From positions 434,001 to 498,000 of the forward strand of contig NZ_FTPB01000004.1 of NCBI RefSeq assembly GCF_900155595.1: a DNA stretch of 64,000 nt, given 5' to 3'. Made by a program: the position numbers and the translations under genes. Origin of the DNA: Actinomyces mediterranea (GTDB lineage Bacteria > Actinomycetota > Actinomycetes > Actinomycetales > Actinomycetaceae). Shown piece by piece: positions 16,893 to 23,811 of this stretch. The notes beneath the pieces were generated by a model. It was not told the origin of the DNA and ran no database searches. It saw nothing but the letters and a program-made list of their open reading frames with translations. The stretch's first letter is position 1. Each line of letters opens with the position of its first letter.

Positions 16893-16898
16893 GAGGAT

Positions 16899-16926
16899 CT
16901 CCTTCCCCGCCTCTCCGGACGGTCAT
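16899..16926 (-). promoter_or_regulatory. PyrR-binding leader motif overlapping the pyrR Shine-Dalgarno
   Basis: On the coding strand the leader reads GACCGTCCGGAGAGGCGG immediately before GGAAGGAG and the pyrR ATG. The stretch GTCCGGAGAGGC matches the known PyrR recognition loop (consensus around UCCNGAGAGGCU). Because it abuts the ribosome-binding site and no terminator/antiterminator pair is visible, translational repression, as described for mycobacteria, is the likely mode. Confidence 0.75.
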
Positions 16927-17041
16927 TAAAGGAATGCTTCCGCGCTCAAGGGTACACGTGCCCGAGACCCCGTCCGACCATTCATCCACACGACGGAATA
17001 GTGCGCCTCATCACCCCGATGCGGCGCGTTGACGCGAACCG

Positions 17042-17107
17042 GCCCGGCTCCGCTCTCGCCTCCCGCCGGGCTGGAGAAACAGCTGGAGGGAAGGAGCGGA
17101 ACCGGGC
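17042..17107 (-). terminator. Long hairpin between the transketolase genes and pyrR
   Basis: The arms GCCCGGCTCCGCTC (17042-17055) and GAGCGGAACCGGGC (17094-17107) pair over 14 positions with one G-U wobble, enclosing a further CTGGAG-rich region. It lies just beyond the stop of the split transketolase (17126) and upstream of pyrR. No T-run follows on either strand, so it is either a T-less actinobacterial terminator or an RNA-stability element. Confidence 0.5.
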
Positions 17108-17125
17108 TGGAGGCTCGATTTCTTG

Positions 17126-18073
17126 TCAGGCGAACAGTTCGCGCGAGGCAGCGACGATGCCGTCGACGGTGATGCCGTTCATCTCGAGGAGATCCTGGTA
17201 GGGGGCGGACTGGCCGAACTGGTCCCGGATGCCGATCTGGCGCACGAGGGCGCCGCCCTTGGCGGCCACCTCCTGCGACACCGCGGCGCCCAGGCCGGTC
17301 AGGATGGTGTGATCCTCGACAGTGACGATGCGGCCGATCGTAATGCAGGTGTCGACCTCGTCGACGTCGAGCGGCTTGATCGTGTGCATGTCGACGACGC
17401 GCACCGACATGCCTTCGTTTTCGAGGATCTGAGCGGCTTCGAGCGCGAGGCGCACGGTGTCGCCGTTGGCGATGATCGCGACGTCGCCGCCCTCGTTGAG
17501 GACCTTCGCCTTGCCGATCTCGAACTCCTCGTCGGGACCGTAGATCGCGGGCATCGCATCGCGGGTAAAGCGCAGGAACATCGGTCCGACCCAGTCGGCT
17601 GCGGCGCGGACGAGCTTCTTCGTCGCATTCGCGTCCGCGGGCATGACGACGGTCATTCCCGGCAGGCCGCGCATCGTGCCCATGTCCTCGATGGCCTGGT
17701 GGGATCCGCCGTCGTTGCCGGGGGTGAGTCCGCCGTGGGAGCAGGCGATCTTCACATTGAGTTTGGGGTAGCAGATCGATTGGCGGATCTGCTCGCCCAT
17801 ACGCAGGGATCCGAAGACCGCGTAGGTGACGACGAAGGGGATCTTGCCGGTGGTGGCGAGGCCCGCTGCGACGCCCGCACCGTTCTGCTCGGCGATGCCG
17901 ACGTTGACGTGCTGGTCGGGAAGCTCCTTGGAGAACCTCGTGGTACCGCACGACTTCGCGATATCGCAGTCGACGACGAAGATCTCGGGGCGTTCCTTGC
18001 CCAGCTCGACCATCTCTTCGCCGAAGGCCGCGCGGGTGGGGGTCTTGTCGTCGTAGTTGGGGAAGTACTTCAT
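17126..18073 (-). CDS. Transketolase, C-terminal subunit (pyrimidine-binding and C-terminal domains)
   Basis: The 315-residue polypeptide carries the second half of a split transketolase. It would pair with the upstream subunit to form a ThDP enzyme that transfers two-carbon ketol units. The pyrimidine-binding domain contains HVNVGIAEQNGAGVAAGLA, with the catalytic Glu of the family, and SHGGLTPGNDGGSHQAIEDM; the C-terminal transketolase domain follows. Its ATG (18071-18073) overlaps the upstream stop as ATGA, so the halves are translationally coupled in a 1:1 arrangement. It lies at the end of the TRAP/SDR operon, suggesting a dedicated catabolic rather than housekeeping role. Confidence 0.9.
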   Translation of the reverse strand: MKYFPNYDDKTPTRAAFGEEMVELGKERPEIFVVDCDIAKSCGTTRFSKELPDQHVNVGIAEQNGAGVAAGLATTGKIPFVVTYAVFGSLRMGEQIRQSICYPKLNVKIACSHGGLTPGNDGGSHQAIEDMGTMRGLPGMTVVMPADANATKKLVRAAADWVGPMFLRFTRDAMPAIYGPDEEFEIGKAKVLNEGGDVAIIANGDTVRLALEAAQILENEGMSVRVVDMHTIKPLDVDEVDTCITIGRIVTVEDHTILTGLGAAVSQEVAAKGGALVRQIGIRDQFGQSAPYQDLLEMNGITVDGIVAASRELFA

Positions 18074-18909
18074 CGGTCGAGTCCCTTCTCGAGTTCTTCC
18101 ATCGCCTGCTCGTACTGTTCGGTATTGGGAGCAGCCCCGTGCCATCCGGCGACGTCCTCCATGTAGGAGACGCCCTTGCCCTTGATGGTTTTGAGAACGA
18201 GGCCCTTGGGCTTGCCGTTCTTCATCTCGCGGAAGCGATCGAAGGCGTCGGAGATCGCCTGCATGTCGTGGCCGTCGATCTCGACCGCGTCGTAGCCGAA
18301 TGCTTCGAGCTTCTCAACGAAGTCGAGGTTCGGGCTCACCTCGTCGCAGTGGCCGTCGATCTGGAGGTTGTTGTCATCAATGATGACGGTGAAGTTGTCG
18401 AGCTTGTAGGTGTGGGCGCACTGGATGGCCTCCCAGACCTGACCCTCTTGGGTCTCGCCATCGCCGACGAGGGTGTAGACCCGCGAATCGCGTCCGTCGC
18501 GCTTGACGCCGATGGCCATGCCGACGGCGGTCGAAATGCCCTGTCCGAGGGATCCGGTGGAGATCTCAATGCCCGGGCACTTCTTCGAATCGGGGTGCCC
18601 CTGGAAGGGCGACCCCTTCTTGCGCAGCGTGTGGATCGTGTCCATCGGGACGAAACCGGTGATGGCGAGGGCGGCATAAACGATCGGGGCGACGTGTCCC
18701 TTCGACAGGACGAAGCGATCGCGATCCTCCCACTTGGGGTTCGACGGGTCGAATCGCATTTCGCGGAAGTAGAGGTTGGCCACGACGTCCGCCGCGGAGA
18801 GTGAACCGCCGGGGTGGCCGGACTGTGCCTCGTAGATCATTTGGACCGCTGTCTTGCGGAGCTGCTTGGCGCGCTCCTTGAGTTCTTCAGTGGTAACGCT
18901 TTGCACCAT
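18070..18909 (-). CDS. Transketolase, N-terminal ThDP-binding subunit
   Basis: The 279-residue subunit binds the thiamine diphosphate pyrophosphate. It has SGHPGGSLSAADVVANLYF near residue 30, LSKGHVAPIVYAALA, and the ThDP/Mg motif GDGETQEGQVWEAIQCAH followed by IIDDNNLQIDG. Such split transketolases occur in carbohydrate and polyol catabolic clusters (for example the apulose-type enzymes) as well as in unassigned operons. It follows dctM after 63 bases in the same direction. The true acceptor and donor cannot be deduced from the sequence. Confidence 0.92.
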   Translation of the reverse strand: MVQSVTTEELKERAKQLRKTAVQMIYEAQSGHPGGSLSAADVVANLYFREMRFDPSNPKWEDRDRFVLSKGHVAPIVYAALAITGFVPMDTIHTLRKKGSPFQGHPDSKKCPGIEISTGSLGQGISTAVGMAIGVKRDGRDSRVYTLVGDGETQEGQVWEAIQCAHTYKLDNFTVIIDDNNLQIDGHCDEVSPNLDFVEKLEAFGYDAVEIDGHDMQAISDAFDRFREMKNGKPKGLVLKTIKGKGVSYMEDVAGWHGAAPNTEQYEQAMEELEKGLDR

Positions 18910-18972
18910 GGTGGGTTTCGCTTCTTCCGTATAGTGTGTGAGTCGGGATAGTGAGGTGGGTCGGGGTGCGAG

Positions 18973-20253
18973 TCAGCCCCCGGACGGGATCATGAGAAGA
19001 GAGGGAAGATAGGCGACGGTAAGGACGAATGCGATGATGAGGGCGTAGAACAAGAGCAGTTCCCTCGTTACCTTGTTGATTCCCACGCGTCCGATACCGG
19101 CTGAGATGTAGAGCGTTGTCCCGACCGGCGGGGTGTATAGGCCCATGGCGAGGGTGCAGACCATGAGGATGCCAAGGTGGATGGTATTCATGCCGATCGC
19201 CGATGCCAGGGGCATGAGAACCGGAGTGAGCAGCAGGATGGCGGGCGCCATATCGAGGAACATGCCTGTGATGATCAGGATGAACACGATGAACAACACG
19301 ATGAGGTAGTAGTTCTCCGTCGTGGACAGCAGTGCAGTGGCGAGTTTCTGCGGGGCCTCTTGGATGGTGAGCAGCCAGGACAGTGCTGCGGAGAACATGA
19401 TGAGCACCATGACGACTGCAGTCGATGCTGCCGACTCCGCCATCGACCTCTTAAAGGACTTCCACGTCAAATCGCGGTACATGGTGACGCGAATGAGGAT
19501 CGCGTACACCGCGGCGAGCACCGACACCTCGGTAACCGTCGCCGTTCCCGTGAAGAGGAAGACTCGGATGAGGACGACGGGAATGAGGATAGCTGGTGTT
19601 GCGATGAGCAAGTCGATGAGGAGCTTCTTAAGGGTCAGTTTGGCGCGGACCCGGGGATAGTTGTGTTTCCAGGCGATGAACCAGCAAGCGAACATGAGAC
19701 AGACCGCCATGACGATGCCGGGAACGAGGCCCGCGTTGAAGACTGCGGCGACTGATGCACCAGAGGCCGCCGAGAAGAGGATCATCGGAATCGACGGCGG
19801 GATAATGACGCCGAGCACCGAGGATGATGCGTTAACCGCTGCCGCGTACTGCGCGGGGTAGCCGAGCTTCTTCGTCCACGGGATCATGACCTTGCCCAGG
19901 CCGGTTGCGTCGGCGACGGCTGAACCGGAGACGCCTGCGAACACCGCGTTGGTGAGGACCGACGTCATGCCGACGCCTCCGCGGAAGCGCCCGACGAGTC
20001 GTGTCGCCAGACCGATCACCTGTGCGCCGAGTTTGCCCGAGAAGAGCAGGTCGGCGGTCAGAATGAAGAAGGGGATGGCGAGCATCGAGTAGTCGGTTGC
20101 GCCTGCGAAAGACTGCTGGGCGAGGGCTTCCATCGGCAGCGAGCCGATGGCGAAGAGACCGACGATGGTACCTGCAATGACCGAGAAGGCGACCGGGACT
20201 CCGAGGAGGAGGAGTCCGACGAAGACAATGATGGCGAGTGCGACCTCAAACAC
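18973..20253 (-). CDS. dctM: TRAP transporter large permease (DctM family)
   Basis: The 426-residue membrane protein is the large subunit of a tripartite ATP-independent periplasmic transporter, which uses an ion gradient to import a ligand delivered by DctP. It is hydrophobic throughout, with about twelve membrane segments, beginning MFEVALAIIVFVGLLLLGVP. Conserved DctM features include GVSGSAVADATGLGKVMIP and GAASGASVAAVFN-like glycine/alanine loops. Its start overlaps dctQ by eight bases. Confidence 0.95.
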   Translation of the reverse strand: MFEVALAIIVFVGLLLLGVPVAFSVIAGTIVGLFAIGSLPMEALAQQSFAGATDYSMLAIPFFILTADLLFSGKLGAQVIGLATRLVGRFRGGVGMTSVLTNAVFAGVSGSAVADATGLGKVMIPWTKKLGYPAQYAAAVNASSSVLGVIIPPSIPMILFSAASGASVAAVFNAGLVPGIVMAVCLMFACWFIAWKHNYPRVRAKLTLKKLLIDLLIATPAILIPVVLIRVFLFTGTATVTEVSVLAAVYAILIRVTMYRDLTWKSFKRSMAESAASTAVVMVLIMFSAALSWLLTIQEAPQKLATALLSTTENYYLIVLFIVFILIITGMFLDMAPAILLLTPVLMPLASAIGMNTIHLGILMVCTLAMGLYTPPVGTTLYISAGIGRVGINKVTRELLLFYALIIAFVLTVAYLPSLLMIPSGG

Positions 20254-20887
20254 CGTGAACCTCCTGAACTGCCTGCTCCGGAGTCATATCGGAGCCTGCA
20301 TCAATGCTGTGGATGGCGCCGTTCTTGTAGAAGAACCATGCGCGTGCAGCAGCCTGAATGGACAGGCATGCCGTCATGACGACGAAAGCGGCGAAACTCC
20401 CGAGTTGAGGCCATTCCATGATCGGCGTGATCTGCTGCGACATGGGGCCGATCATGTAGGCGGCCAGGTAGGTCATGTAGGCCATGAGGATCGTGATGAA
20501 GATCCAAATGCCGACGGACATCCGTTGGAATGCCTTCCCCGAGAGTTTTTCGAGGAAGAAGTTCACGCCGACATGCGCCATCTGGGCCTGAGCGACGACT
20601 GCCCCGGCACAGATGAGCCACGGGAGGAAGTAGCTCGGCCCTTCGGAGGCCAGGTCGAGGCTCGCGTTGAAGACGTAACGCATGATGACCGAGAGGGTCA
20701 CGAGGACGACCATGACGATCGTCAGCGCGGACGCCGCCCACGCGGCGACTTTCAAGAAGACGGCGTTGACAGGGTCGGTCGCCTCAAGGGGTTCGTCGAG
20801 AACTGATTGGGTATCAAGGGCGGCAATGTCCTCTTCGGTGATGATGGCGCCCTGTGCGGGCGCATCCGGGTTGCGAGGGTCAGTCAT
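20246..20887 (-). CDS. dctQ: TRAP transporter small permease (DctQ family)
   Basis: The 213-residue protein is the four-helix small subunit of the TRAP transporter. After a hydrophilic N-terminal extension of about 45 residues it shows four hydrophobic segments, with SYFLPWLICAGAVVAQAQMA and the downstream MAHVGVNFFLE matching the DctQ pattern. It lies three bases after the dctP stop and overlaps dctM. The acidic N-terminal extension is somewhat longer than usual. Confidence 0.9.
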   Translation of the reverse strand: MTDPRNPDAPAQGAIITEEDIAALDTQSVLDEPLEATDPVNAVFLKVAAWAASALTIVMVVLVTLSVIMRYVFNASLDLASEGPSYFLPWLICAGAVVAQAQMAHVGVNFFLEKLSGKAFQRMSVGIWIFITILMAYMTYLAAYMIGPMSQQITPIMEWPQLGSFAAFVVMTACLSIQAAARAWFFYKNGAIHSIDAGSDMTPEQAVQEVHGV

Positions 20888-20890
20888 TGC

Positions 20891-21925
20891 TCACTCCTTC
20901 TGAGCGTAGTCGACGCGCTCGGCGTCGGCGGCTTGGGTGATGAGTGCGAAGAACTCAGGGAACTTCGCCTCCCACTGGTCGTAGACGGGGGCGGTCGCTT
21001 CGCGGAACGCTTCCTTGGCAGGGTGGGTCACGGTGAGTGCGTCCTCGAACTCCGCGTAGATCTCAGCGGTCTGGTCACTCATGAGTTGACGCTGGTAATC
21101 ACGCGCTTCATCTGCTGCCTCTTGGATGATCGACTGCTGCTCATCGGTGAGTCTGGCCCAGCGCTGGGTGGAGATCACGAAGGGGTTCGACTCGTACTTG
21201 TGTCCGGTGACCGCAAGATAGGGCTGAACCTCGTTGAGTTTGGAGCTCTTGATGTTGACAACCGGGTTCTCCTGCCCGTCAACGGCACCGGTCTTGAGCG
21301 CGAGGTAGAGTTCGCCGAAGGCCAGCGGTGTCGGATTCGCATTGAGCTGGTTGAAGATCGAAATCGTCATCGTGTCGTCGGGGGTGCGGATCTTGAGACC
21401 CGACAGGTCCTCCGGCGAGTTGATCTCGCGCTTCGAGTTCGATAGGTCTCGCATGCCGTTGTCCCAAAGCCCCAGGACATGGAACCCGCTCTTCTCCGCC
21501 TCTGTCGCGAGGAAGCCCTCGATCTCGTCGGAGTCGACGACGGAGTAGGCGTGCTGGGAGTTCTCGAAGAGGAAGGGCAATCCGATGAGCGCCGCTTCGG
21601 GGACGTAAGTCGCGAAGGGGCCTTGGGAGTTGATCGTCATATCGAGGGTACCGGCGGCGACAGAGACCATCATCTCGGTGTCGGAGCCGACAGTCTCCTG
21701 GCCAAGGATCTGGATGTCAATCGTGTTATTAGACTTCTCCTCGACGAGTTCTTCGAACTTCAATGCTGCTTCTGAGCGCGGGTTGCCGGGGGCGGCGCCG
21801 TGCCCCAAAATGATGCGGATGCTGTCGGTGTGCCGAGGGCCAGAGCCCCCCGCACATCCGGTGAGCAGCGCAATGACGGCGATGCTTGCGGTCATGCCGC
21901 GGACGATGTTTCTACGGTGAAACAT
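20891..21925 (-). CDS. dctP: TRAP transporter solute-binding lipoprotein (DctP family)
   Basis: The 344-residue protein captures the substrate outside the membrane. The N-terminus MFHRRNIVRGMTASIAV ends in a lipobox LTGC, so it is a lipid-anchored protein, as expected without a periplasm. The DctP family signature SPEDLSGLKIRTPDD, following the conserved Arg region, suggests an organic acid or acidic sugar ligand, since that arginine normally salt-bridges a carboxylate. The start ATG at 21923-21925 has AAGGAGA seven bases upstream; the longer frame is unsupported. It lies between the SDR gene and dctQ. Confidence 0.93.
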   Translation of the reverse strand: MFHRRNIVRGMTASIAVIALLTGCAGGSGPRHTDSIRIILGHGAAPGNPRSEAALKFEELVEEKSNNTIDIQILGQETVGSDTEMMVSVAAGTLDMTINSQGPFATYVPEAALIGLPFLFENSQHAYSVVDSDEIEGFLATEAEKSGFHVLGLWDNGMRDLSNSKREINSPEDLSGLKIRTPDDTMTISIFNQLNANPTPLAFGELYLALKTGAVDGQENPVVNIKSSKLNEVQPYLAVTGHKYESNPFVISTQRWARLTDEQQSIIQEAADEARDYQRQLMSDQTAEIYAEFEDALTVTHPAKEAFREATAPVYDQWEAKFPEFFALITQAADAERVDYAQKE

Positions 21926-21968
21926 GCATCGTCTCCTTTTGCTGTGTGTCGGGGTTGTGGGGAATCGA

Positions 21969-22745
21969 TCAGCAGATGTAGGCGCCACCGTTGATGGAGT
22001 GGGTGATGCCGGTGATGTAAGCCGAGTCTTCAGAGCTCAGCCAGCAGATCAGTGCGGCGATCTCCCAGGGTTCAGCCTGGCGCTTGAGCGGGACGGCCTC
22101 GGCGAGGGCCTTCTCCGTCTCTTCGGTCGTACCGGTGCGGATATCCGTATTGACGACGCCCGGTGCGACTGCGTTGACGGTAATGCCGTATTCGGCGAGT
22201 TCGCGCGCCATACCGCGCGTGAGGCCGAGGACGCCGGCCTTGGCGGCCGCGTAGGACGTCTTCGAGAAGACGCCCCCGCCGTGCTGGGCGGTGACGGAGG
22301 ATGTGTTGACGACACGCCCGTAGCCGCCCTCGATCATGAGGGGAACGAGCGCCTGTGCGAGCAAAAAGGACCCAGTGAGATTGATGGCGAGGACGCGGTT
22401 CCACTCTTCGAGTGAGATTTCGAGGAAGCCCTTCGGCGAGGGGATGCCTGCGATATTGGCAAGAGCGCCCACCGTCGGCAGGTCGGATGCCGTGATCGCT
22501 TCCACGACCGCCGCAACCGACTCGGGGTCGGCGACATTGACGGTGAATGCTTCGGCGGGAGCATCGGGCACCTCGGCCTTTACCGTGGCGGCAGCCTCTT
22601 TCGCCCCCTCTTCATTAATGTCGAGCATCGCGACTGCCCAACCTTCGCGAGCGAATCGCAGGGCGGTCTGATACCCGATCCCCTTCAGTGATGATGTCCC
22701 TGTAACAACAGCCGTGCGCTGTCCAACACCAGTGCCGTAGCTCAT
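21969..22745 (-). CDS. SDR-family NAD(P)-dependent oxidoreductase
   Basis: The 258-residue classical short-chain dehydrogenase has a Rossmann N-terminus (VVTGTSSLKGIGYQTALRFA), NIAG in place of NAAG, the catalytic Ser in VVNTSSVTAQHGG and the YAAAK active-site pair, then a family-typical C-terminus. An Asp at the end of strand 2 (AMLDINEE) favours NAD over NADP. It is the first gene of the TRAP-transketolase operon behind a clear promoter, so its likely role is to oxidise the imported polyol or hydroxy-acid before transketolase cleavage. The exact substrate is unknown. Confidence 0.92.
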   Translation of the reverse strand: MSYGTGVGQRTAVVTGTSSLKGIGYQTALRFAREGWAVAMLDINEEGAKEAAATVKAEVPDAPAEAFTVNVADPESVAAVVEAITASDLPTVGALANIAGIPSPKGFLEISLEEWNRVLAINLTGSFLLAQALVPLMIEGGYGRVVNTSSVTAQHGGGVFSKTSYAAAKAGVLGLTRGMARELAEYGITVNAVAPGVVNTDIRTGTTEETEKALAEAVPLKRQAEPWEIAALICWLSSEDSAYITGITHSINGGAYIC

Positions 22746-22791
22746 GGTAATTCTCCACCTTGTTGTGAAATCAGGCGCCGTCGCCTGTAAT

Positions 22792-22833
22792 TGTTAACAG
22801 TAGGTAGTCATCACCTGACTGTCAATACAATAG
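22792..22833 (-). promoter_or_regulatory. Promoter and operator of the SDR/TRAP/transketolase operon
   Basis: On the minus strand TTGACA (22820-22825) and TACTGT (22797-22802) are separated by exactly 17 bases, a near-consensus housekeeping promoter. The perfect 8-base palindrome TGTTAACA (22792-22799) overlaps the -10. The -35 is preceded by CTATTGT, resembling the dyad in front of the regulator gene (23708-23726). Binding by the adjacent GntR protein is inferred. Confidence 0.65.
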
Positions 22834-22923
22834 TATCTACACAACAGCACAGTTCTCACGCCTCTTCACAGCGAAAGCCGAAAAAGGTCCAAGGTCCCGG
22901 TGCGCTCAACCTCGCTCACAGGG

Positions 22924-22960
22924 GATGCGGGGTGCGAGGCATGGCCCCGCACCCCGCATC
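22924..22960 (-). terminator. Hairpin after the GntR gene
   Basis: GATGCGGGGTGCG (22924-22936) pairs perfectly over 13 bases with CGCACCCCGCATC (22948-22960), with an 11-base loop. It starts 13 bases beyond the end of the regulator gene and precedes the SDR promoter, so it probably separates the regulator transcript from the operon. No T-run follows. Confidence 0.6.
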
Positions 22961-22972
22961 ACACAATTCGAA

Positions 22973-23641
22973 TCACTCCTGACGAGTCTGAGCATCCGGG
23001 CTCTTCGCCGCCCAGATCTCCCCCGCATGACGCATATGCTCAACGAGAGTCGCTTTCACTTCGTCGGGGTCGCCTTTGCGCAGTCCCTCAACGATCGGCA
23101 TGTGATAACTCGAGTCCATGAGCCCAGTGTCAGTGCCCGCCGACCGCGACAGCACTGCGACGCGCATGCGGTCCTGCAACTCGCGCCAGATGGCGAGCAG
23201 CATCGCATTACCCGAGGCCTCGCACATCGCCTCATGGAAGCCGAGGTCGACATCGAGGCGCTCCCTCACGGACACGCCCTCGGGGAACGCGGGGAGCCTC
23301 TTCTCCAGCATGTCGGCAGCCTCGCCCCCACGGCCGGAGCGCACGATCGTCTCGGCGGCGAGCGCCTCCAATGCGGCGCGGACATCGAAGAGTTCTCGTA
23401 GCTGAGCGGAGGAGAATTCCGCAACGCGCAATCCGACGCGATCCTCGCCCTCGACGAGTCCGCTCTGTTGGAGACGGCGCAGCGCCTCGCGCACCGTCCC
23501 CCTGGAGACATTGAGTTGCTCGGCGAGGTCGACCTCGCCGAGGCGAGTCCCGGCGGCGAGGCGCCCCCCGAGGATCTCGGAGCGCAGGGTCATGTACACC
23601 TGTTCGCGCAGAGTCAATCGGTTCACTCCCGGCAACGGCAT
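22973..23641 (-). CDS. GntR-family transcriptional regulator, FadR/FCD type
   Basis: The 222-residue protein has an N-terminal winged helix (LTLREQVYMTLRSEILGGRL, then LNVSRGTVREALRRLQQSGL) and a C-terminal all-helical FCD ligand domain with the metal-site residues in DLGFHEAMCE, YHMPIVEGL and EHMRHAG. FCD regulators usually sense small organic or sugar acids. Its position just upstream of, and in line with, the SDR-TRAP-transketolase operon argues that it controls it. A dyad 67 bases before its start suggests autoregulation. Confidence 0.93.
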   Translation of the reverse strand: MPLPGVNRLTLREQVYMTLRSEILGGRLAAGTRLGEVDLAEQLNVSRGTVREALRRLQQSGLVEGEDRVGLRVAEFSSAQLRELFDVRAALEALAAETIVRSGRGGEAADMLEKRLPAFPEGVSVRERLDVDLGFHEAMCEASGNAMLLAIWRELQDRMRVAVLSRSAGTDTGLMDSSYHMPIVEGLRKGDPDEVKATLVEHMRHAGEIWAAKSPDAQTRQE

Positions 23642-23707
23642 GATCGTTCAACACCTCGTTCTTCGCAGCGCGCAGCACACCTGTTTGCGCTAGTCAACAC
23701 CCAACAT

Positions 23708-23726
23708 CTAATGTCAACGACATTAG
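23708..23726. promoter_or_regulatory. Operator-like dyad upstream of the GntR gene
   Basis: CTAATGTC-AAC-GACATTAG is a perfect inverted repeat with 8-base arms and a 3-base centre. On the minus strand it contains TTGACA and so overlaps a potential -35 element for the regulator gene. It is the kind of site FadR-type dimers bind. Confidence 0.6.
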
Positions 23727-23768
23727 TCGTCGTGTGCCCGTCGGTTCAAGACACAGTGAGGGATATCA

Positions 23769-23804
23769 AGAGGCGGTCCACGGGGACTCCCGTGGACCGC
23801 CTCT
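23769..23804 (-). terminator. Strong hairpin terminator after nusB
   Basis: A perfect 16-bp stem (AGAGGCGGTCCACGGG at 23769-23784 with its complement at 23789-23804) closes on a GACT tetraloop eight bases after the nusB stop. It ends the hisF/aro/efp/nusB transcription block on the minus strand; CTTGATAT follows rather than a pure T-run. Confidence 0.85.
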
Positions 23805-23811
23805 GCGCACC

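Follow-up and report, generated by a model that had tools for sequence, protein, structure and literature searches.

The window analyzed here is a 64,000-nucleotide stretch of Actinomyces mediterranea (contig NZ_FTPB01000004.1, positions 434,001 to 498,000). It contains a minus-strand operon encoding a tripartite ATP-independent periplasmic (TRAP) importer, a short-chain dehydrogenase/reductase (SDR) and a split transketolase, which we read as a probable catabolic unit for polyhydroxy carboxylic acids. Seven genes were confirmed by the open reading frame (ORF) list and Pfam, and all seven proteins score above the curated Pfam cut-offs of their families. The regulator gene (22973..23641) encodes a GntR/FCD-family transcriptional regulator of 222 aa (GntR 65 bits, FCD 67 bits). 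It is followed on the same strand by the gene for an SDR-family dehydrogenase, probably of the NAD type (21969..22745, 258 aa; adh_short_C2 197 bits). The importer genes are dctP for the solute-binding lipoprotein (20891..21925, 344 aa; DctP 288 bits), dctQ for the small permease (20246..20887, 213 aa; DctQ 61.5 bits) and dctM for the large permease (18973..20253, 426 aa, GTG start; DctM 341 bits, and TIGR00786 377 bits, over its cut-off). DctP, DctQ and DctM jointly exceed their cut-offs, as expected of a TRAP transporter. Then come tktN for the thiamine diphosphate (ThDP)-binding half (18070..18909, 279 aa; Transketolase_N 199 bits) and tktC for the pyrimidine-binding/C-terminal half (17126..18073, 315 aa; Transket_pyr 130 bits, Transketolase_C 98 bits). 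The adjoining N half with its ThDP domain and C half with its pyrimidine and C-terminal domains are both over the cut-offs and make up a two-subunit transketolase. The block SDR-dctP-dctQ-dctM-tktN-tktC of the initial annotation is thus borne out. No kinase was found among the operon genes in the ORF list or by Pfam. The dctP start is most likely the ATG at 21925, which is preceded by AAGGAG and gives a lipobox LLTGC (by eye); the most likely tktC start is 18073. The host genome (2.40 Mb in 4 contigs) has a single DctP, that of the operon, and a further transketolase elsewhere, which is one open frame of 703 aa matching both TktN and TktC.

The coupled stops and starts reported in the initial annotation hold at three tight junctions only: dctP-dctQ (3 nt apart), dctQ/dctM (8-nt overlap) and tktN/tktC (4-nt overlap). 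The SDR-dctP and dctM-tktN junctions measure 43 and 63 nt, respectively. The regulator gene does lie upstream as described, but it is set apart from the SDR gene by 227 nt holding a promoter-like site (TTGACA-17-TACTGT), so it is probably a transcription unit of its own, separate from the six-gene operon.

The nusB-pyrR interval and the upstream region

The whole operon is found between nusB and pyrR in five other genus members (G157, G167, G169, G171 and G175), with 58 to 91% identity to the window across the seven proteins; the regulators at the same place are 58 to 73% identical. Because the same seven genes, order and place recur in five further genus members, the gene order is not chance. 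At least 20 further genus members have no DctP match. In eight of 20 such members (L188, L189, L190, L192, L197, L199, L202 and L204) pyrR comes next after nusB, 0.2 to 1.0 kb on, and in the other 12 no pyrR was found within about 1.5 kb of the nusB flank. Longer nusB stretches were available for four of the 20. In G009, one of the eight, the distance is about 0.9 kb. G114 and G161 have other ORFs there, spanning 5.4 and 6.6 kb, respectively, and in G102 no pyrR lies within 7.6 kb of nusB. Since its contents differ among genus members, the nusB-pyrR interval (window 16893-23811) is a variable cargo site in the genus, occupied by the operon, a 0.2- to 1.0-kb spacer or other genes. G169 also carries a second, distant TRAP system (L035:11881-14841; DctP 24%, DctM 30%) between the regulator gene and nusB, divergent from the operon.

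A putative sigma-70 promoter of the six-gene operon was read at 22797..22825 on the minus strand (TTGACA at 22825-22820, a 17-nt spacer and TACTGT at 22802-22797). All six genus members have TTGACA, a spacer of 17 to 18 nt and TACTGTT(A/G)ACA upstream of the SDR gene, and TACTGTTxACA is invariant in the alignment of these stretches. The palindrome TGTTAACA (22792..22799, minus strand) overlaps the -10 element and is a candidate operator of the GntR regulator. It is intact in five of the six genus members, with TGTTGACA instead in L038. Alignment of the six sequences also gave a short leader stem before the SDR gene (CAGGC-GACGGC-GCCTG, 22772..22787, minus strand), whose five pairs are kept in 30/30 cells; two of these pairs have changed at both positions. 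Of five shuffle measures, three, including the covariation score, were reached in just 4 of 500 shuffles; the count of pairs changed on both sides was reached by 259 of 500 and the pair-type count by 464 of 500. Upstream of the GntR gene there is a perfect inverted repeat, CTAATGTC-GTT-GACATTAG (23708-23726), which the repeat lists of the five other genus upstream stretches do not contain.

A recurrent importer, dehydrogenase and transketolase module

A contig scan with the DctP alignment gave 577 confirmed loci, and the best 80 of them were analyzed. The locus counts are based on tblastn and a composition-scored gene caller that still misplaced some frames. Among these best 80 of 577, a module-type SDR together with both halves of what we call the R-type transketolase is present in 26 of the 31 loci whose DctP identity is 40% or higher, and in one of the 49 loci below 40% (L091). 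The five remaining loci at 40% or above are L059 and L074 (both halves), L055 (SDR only), and L054 and L078 (neither; L078 is a 3.3-kb contig). Brachybacterium has the nearest module locus in this set (DctP 66%). Six module loci (L052, L058, L062, L063, L068 and L075) carry a further transketolase-like gene right after TktC, which matches both halves (about 35% and 29%).

The TRAP importer is replaced by a major facilitator superfamily (MFS) importer in Klebsiella pneumoniae, Pantoea vagans, Acinetobacter baumannii, Paraburkholderia and Arthrobacter, while the SDR and transketolase stay. The order is LysR, SDR, MFS, TktN, TktC in P. vagans, A. baumannii and Paraburkholderia; in K. pneumoniae the MFS gene precedes the SDR gene, and the Arthrobacter module reads SDR, MFS, TktN, TktC, GntR. 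The nearest family of the Klebsiella, Pantoea, Acinetobacter and Paraburkholderia MFS proteins is the D-galactonate transporter TIGR00893, below its cut-off. No kinase or aldolase is annotated between the module genes of these four. The recurrence of such MFS-borne modules suggests that the module is probably complete without a local kinase or aldolase. R-type TktC (E ≤ 1e-90) was found in 189 of 72,556 plasmid records, including those of Klebsiella, Acinetobacter, Pantoea, Burkholderia and rhizobia. Of 396 genomes in the host phylum, 2 have it. Gene annotation was present in 22 of the 25 plasmid stretches examined; it names the R-type halves simply "transketolase", next to an "SDR" or a "glucose 1-dehydrogenase". 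The initial annotation had named a prior assignment of the six-gene order to a substrate as grounds for refutation; no paper making such an assignment was recognized in the literature searched. Two pairs in other contexts were set aside, namely SDR-tktN-tktC of Solidesulfovibrio, which sits inside a pseudaminic-acid-type cluster, and tktN-tktC of S. meliloti Rm41, which lies among SDRs, an ABC (ATP-binding cassette) importer, an FGGY kinase and aldolases.

The glycine motif of the window SDR (TGTSSLKGIG) is longer by two inserted residues. In 39 of 39 module SDRs counted, TG and G(I/L)G are separated by five residues (the L051 motif ends in SIG). Among 20 other SDR rows, 14 have three residues and five fall outside the pattern, including L061, a module SDR fragment without a start; the remaining row is L074, a truncated module-like SDR at 45% that has five. 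For the SDR tree 63 rows were kept and the short fragments L061, L074 and L117 were left out. In it the window clade groups with Brachybacterium (99/96) and Arthrobacter (100/99), next to the module SDRs of proteobacteria. A single non-module row, the very long L091_7893, is placed on the module side, weakly supported (40/90). By both the TG-x5-G(I/L)G motif and its grouping, the window protein is a module SDR. An Asp after beta-2, which favors NAD in SDRs, was found in 38 of 40 sequences by pattern and in L073 by eye; the last, L061, is a fragment. In DctP, two arginines are invariant in alignments of 10 and 21 rows (R160 and R181 in the 10-row numbering). They occupy acid-binding positions that we assigned by motif, not by structure, taking the SiaP motif as a guide, and the carboxylate-coordinating arginine expected of such a solute-binding protein is taken to be among them. 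The role of such arginines in TRAP solute-binding proteins is described in PMC7660916. The SDR groups with the module and TktC lies outside the R-type clade (below), so the window SDR and DctP are orthologous to those of the module and the transketolase is not. The window operon is a genuine member of a common module, with an exchanged transketolase.

The split transketolase and its exchange

The best match of the window TktN in the plasmid collection is from Fusobacterium vincentii (57%), and TktC has its best solved relative in the split transketolase of Carboxydothermus (E 1.6e-88). For the TktC set, rows below 35% identity to the best query and proteins over a length limit were dropped. 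In the resulting tree of 85 rows, 43 R-type rows, including Brachybacterium and Arthrobacter, lie on one side of a branch with support 100/100 and length 1.71. The window clade lies outside this side, among other split transketolases, so membership in the R-type clade was rejected. Its nearest row is L156 (100/96; the program warns of long branches). The L156 operon (L185:482-13609), the nearest TktC from outside the genus, appears by eye to encode a FadR-like regulator, two SDRs, an ABC sugar importer, TktC/TktN and an E1-alpha/E1-beta-like pair. The 43 R-type rows (e.g., L041:6796-7833) form one clade with no function assigned in the records examined.

Active-site residues were counted at human-numbered positions. 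In human transketolase, residues 318, 345, 416, 424 and 474 are sugar-phosphate residues. All five (R318, S345, H416, D424 and R474) are present in 6/6 TktC sequences of the window clade, with Y at the F-position and N in place of E423 (6/6 each). R-type TktC has lost R318, carries S345 to Y, F to Y and H416 to L, has a gap at D424 and keeps R474 (43/43 each); the window TktC shows neither the S345 to Y and H416 to L changes nor the D424 deletion. Among 35 other split transketolases the counts are R318 35, S345 24, F 31, H416 33, D424 33 and R474 35. No R-type match at E ≤ 1e-90 was found among the candidates scored in the host genome (G000). The module TktC is R-type in 43 rows and the window has a split transketolase with a canonical site; we conclude from the sequences that the transketolase halves were exchanged in the window genus while the SDR and importer were kept. 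The phosphate motif of transketolases is named RSFHR in PMC11659671, and the window motif, RSYHR, differs only by F to Y. In the same paper, a sulfofructose transketolase without the S and H of this motif is still described as using glyceraldehyde-3-phosphate, so remodeling does not exclude that acceptor. The remodeling in the R-type is larger than in the sulfofructose enzyme. We infer that the loss of D424 in the R-type would suit glyoxylate as a leaving group.

The canonical site raises another explanation, in which the SDR and transporter serve one pathway and TktNC is an accessory transketolase of the pentose-phosphate type, whose only task is to rebalance the sugar phosphates that other enzymes produce downstream. 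The relationship to the Carboxydothermus enzyme fits this, and so does a Collinsella tktNC pair, annotated without a neighboring SDR or TRAP gene and set aside, like the two pairs above, as a different context. Against it, the transketolase of the other modules is a specialized clade (100/100) found with an SDR and importer, and the host already has another, full-length enzyme. We regard an accessory role as unlikely. A purely housekeeping role of the halves, which the initial annotation had also listed as a ground for refutation, was rejected in view of this other host enzyme and the conserved module.

Proposed route, substrate and closest known systems

Our preferred reading, with a probability of about 0.6, is that the operon serves polyhydroxy carboxylic acid catabolism by import, oxidation and transketolase ketol transfer. 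DctPQM would import the acid and the SDR would oxidize a hydroxyl to give a ketose-like keto acid (HOCH2-CO-CHOH-R-COO-). TktNC would then move the two-carbon ketol end to glyceraldehyde-3-phosphate, or another sugar phosphate, to yield xylulose-5-phosphate and a shortened aldehyde acid. For a tetronate this acid is expected to be glyoxylate, for a pentonate tartronate semialdehyde and for a hexonate a tetruronate. The GntR/FCD protein would switch the operon, probably at TGTTAACA on the -10 element. No kinase or aldolase would be needed because the transketolase delivers xylulose-5-phosphate. We infer substrate class, reaction order, acceptor and regulation alike. The import, SDR oxidation and transketolase cleavage suggested in the initial annotation are supported as a class, by parts conserved across phyla and by TRAP/MFS swaps. 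Its inference from the missing kinase and aldolase, an incomplete or novel pathway, is correct only in part, as a core with neither enzyme nearby recurs and the route would need neither.

The genes beside 43 module loci were surveyed. A LysR cluster is found in 28/43 and an LtnD-like beta-hydroxyacid dehydrogenase in 9/43. Six LtnD-like genes were scanned; five score 281 to 328 bits and the shortened L043 gene 215 bits (cut-off 350), with L-threonate dehydrogenase as the best family each time. As all those tested are below the curated cut-off, they were rejected as substrate proof. Upstream of the Pararhizobium module (L042) lie a D-erythronate dehydrogenase and a 3-oxo-tetronate kinase that exceed their cut-offs; a 2-oxo-tetronate isomerase-like gene there falls short of its own (301 bits, cut-off 325). 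A cassette on a Klebsiella aerogenes plasmid (L228:8111-12182) has TktN, TktC, an LtnD-like gene, which scores 204 bits and is 42% identical to the L057 one, and MFS, with no SDR match in the 19-kb stretch. In rhizobia, Aminobacter and Paraburkholderia, a fuconolactonase-like amidohydrolase and a sugar ABC importer lie beside modules; two such amidohydrolases gave 112 and 141 bits (cut-off 400). The accessory genes lean toward tetronates in R-type modules, and the tetronate reading is drawn mainly from these loci.

TIM barrels also occur beside several module loci. A xylose-isomerase-like TIM barrel and a DhaKL-type kinase accompany R-type modules in Pararhizobium, Aestuarium, and the Arthrobacter-type L050 and L152, and the host has DhaK and DhaL genes elsewhere in its genome. 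This would suit a branched-chain substrate of the apulose/apionate type, from which transketolase frees dihydroxyacetone or hydroxypyruvate and a dihydroxyacetone kinase takes the dihydroxyacetone. DhaKL is present in only 5 of the 43 module loci and not in the window operon, and none of the TIM barrels tested reaches the cut-off of an isomerase family; we consider such a substrate rather improbable.

A second host operon (G000:C3:1145810-1153174, equal to L151:5811-13175), parallel to the transketolase operon, contains GntR and SDR genes and five more. Two of these score over their cut-offs, those for tartronate semialdehyde reductase (448 bits against 397) and glycerate kinase (395 bits against 168). 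Three score below, those for a transaldolase-like protein (79 bits against 367), an IolO-like epimerase (213 bits against 300) and a GntP-type permease (257 bits against 293). ABC importer-like genes lie upstream (by eye). The operon is a predicted transaldolase-based sugar-acid operon that resembles a carboxylate analogue of the sulfo-transaldolase route. Its enzymes would act on tartronate semialdehyde, which the proposed route should give when the substrate is a pentonate. Transaldolase orthologues (71 to 75%) in G157, G169 and G171, together with G000, account for four of the six genomes with the transketolase operon, and none was found in 20 genus members without it (matches of 27 to 39% identity, best E 8e-33, or none). 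This co-occurrence is suggestive only, the species being related. The host glycerate kinase also bears on a simpler scheme, in which a D-glycerate-like acid is imported and oxidized to hydroxypyruvate, a classic transketolase donor, which is used irreversibly with release of CO2. No further enzyme would be needed. The kinase would be a cheaper route, and larger acids that form lactones are suggested by the sugar-type importers and lactonase-like genes found next to modules; we judge the glycerate scheme very improbable.

Several observations weigh against import, oxidation and ketol transfer as proposed. None of the 25 NCBIfam models listed for the SDR reaches its cut-off (the best are FabG-like), and curated SDR families were rejected as substrate proof. 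The closest solved relatives of DctP include sialic-acid binders; these relatives cover many ligands, and they were likewise rejected as proof. R-type enzymes of the other modules lack most phosphate residues and the human D424 (43/43), and a glyceraldehyde-3-phosphate acceptor is not readable from them; the exchange in the window genus could also mean a changed acceptor. The DhaKL genes beside five modules count on the same side, as do G167 and G175, which carry the operon without the transaldolase orthologue. In the host no malate synthase match was found, and the best glyoxylate carboligase match has 308 bits, far below the cut-off of 711, which disfavors glyoxylate as a product. For this reason we went no further for a tetronate (threonate or erythronate) than to rank it first among the substrates within the proposed route, at somewhat less than even odds. 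A pentonate comes next and is clearly less likely, other acids are a little less likely again, and a hexonate is the least likely.

More tentatively, and with doubt as to the whole, we propose a widespread, undescribed phosphorylation-free route in which an importer, an NAD dehydrogenase and a dedicated split transketolase would directly convert tetronate or pentonate to xylulose-5-phosphate plus glyoxylate or tartronate semialdehyde. The R-type would then be a new transketolase subfamily with a rebuilt head-group pocket, an enzyme that the window genus exchanged for another kind of split transketolase, and the transaldolase operon a sister route performing the same chemistry one carbon further. 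If so, a short cassette would let bacteria use sugar acids without a kinase, dehydratase or aldolase, and the swap inside a fixed operon would show which part is replaceable while the rest is unchanged. Close versions of the module recur in many soil, plant and clinical bacteria.

AptAB is a split apulose-4-phosphate transketolase of a sugar catabolic cluster, and its phosphorylated substrate is made by a kinase. The window operon differs in having no kinase; the apulose kinase beside the transketolase that belongs to the family definition is absent. In L-threonate/D-erythronate catabolism (LtnD, OtnI, OtnK, OtnC and DenD) 3-oxo-tetronate is phosphorylated. Some modules resemble this route in having an LtnD-like dehydrogenase, and the Pararhizobium module adjoins a DenD-OtnK-aldolase-OtnI-like cluster, but here transketolase would split 3-oxo-tetronate unphosphorylated. 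The stand-alone Carboxydothermus split transketolase (6yaj/6yak) shares four of the five RSFHR residues with the window TktC; the window clade differs from it by F to Y and by E to N beside D424 (6/6), and the window pair sits in a catabolic operon. The L-gulonate system GulPQM-GulD of Haemophilus, an example of aldonate/uronate catabolism fed by a TRAP importer, likewise combines a TRAP sugar-acid binder with a first-step dehydrogenase that gives a 5-keto acid (fructuronate), but it goes on via a second dehydrogenase, dehydratase, kinase and aldolase, and the main text of PMC5788505 makes no use of the term transketolase. Another close system is the sulfo-transketolase pathway of sulfoquinovose degradation, whose split enzyme SqwGH has sulfofructose as its donor and glyceraldehyde-3-phosphate as its acceptor (PMC11659671). 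Both have a split transketolase, an acidic ketose donor, xylulose-5-phosphate formed from glyceraldehyde-3-phosphate and no kinase acting on the substrate itself. According to the same paper, the sulfo-pathway differs in its sulfonate substrate, in starting with an isomerase where the window has a dehydrogenase, in most likely using ABC import and in the SqwGH-type head-group motif RAFDR, which the window replaces by RSYHR. Neither a sulfoquinovose isomerase nor a sulfonate exporter was found among the operon genes. The proposed route is best read, by analogy, as a carboxylate counterpart of the sulfo-transketolase pathway.

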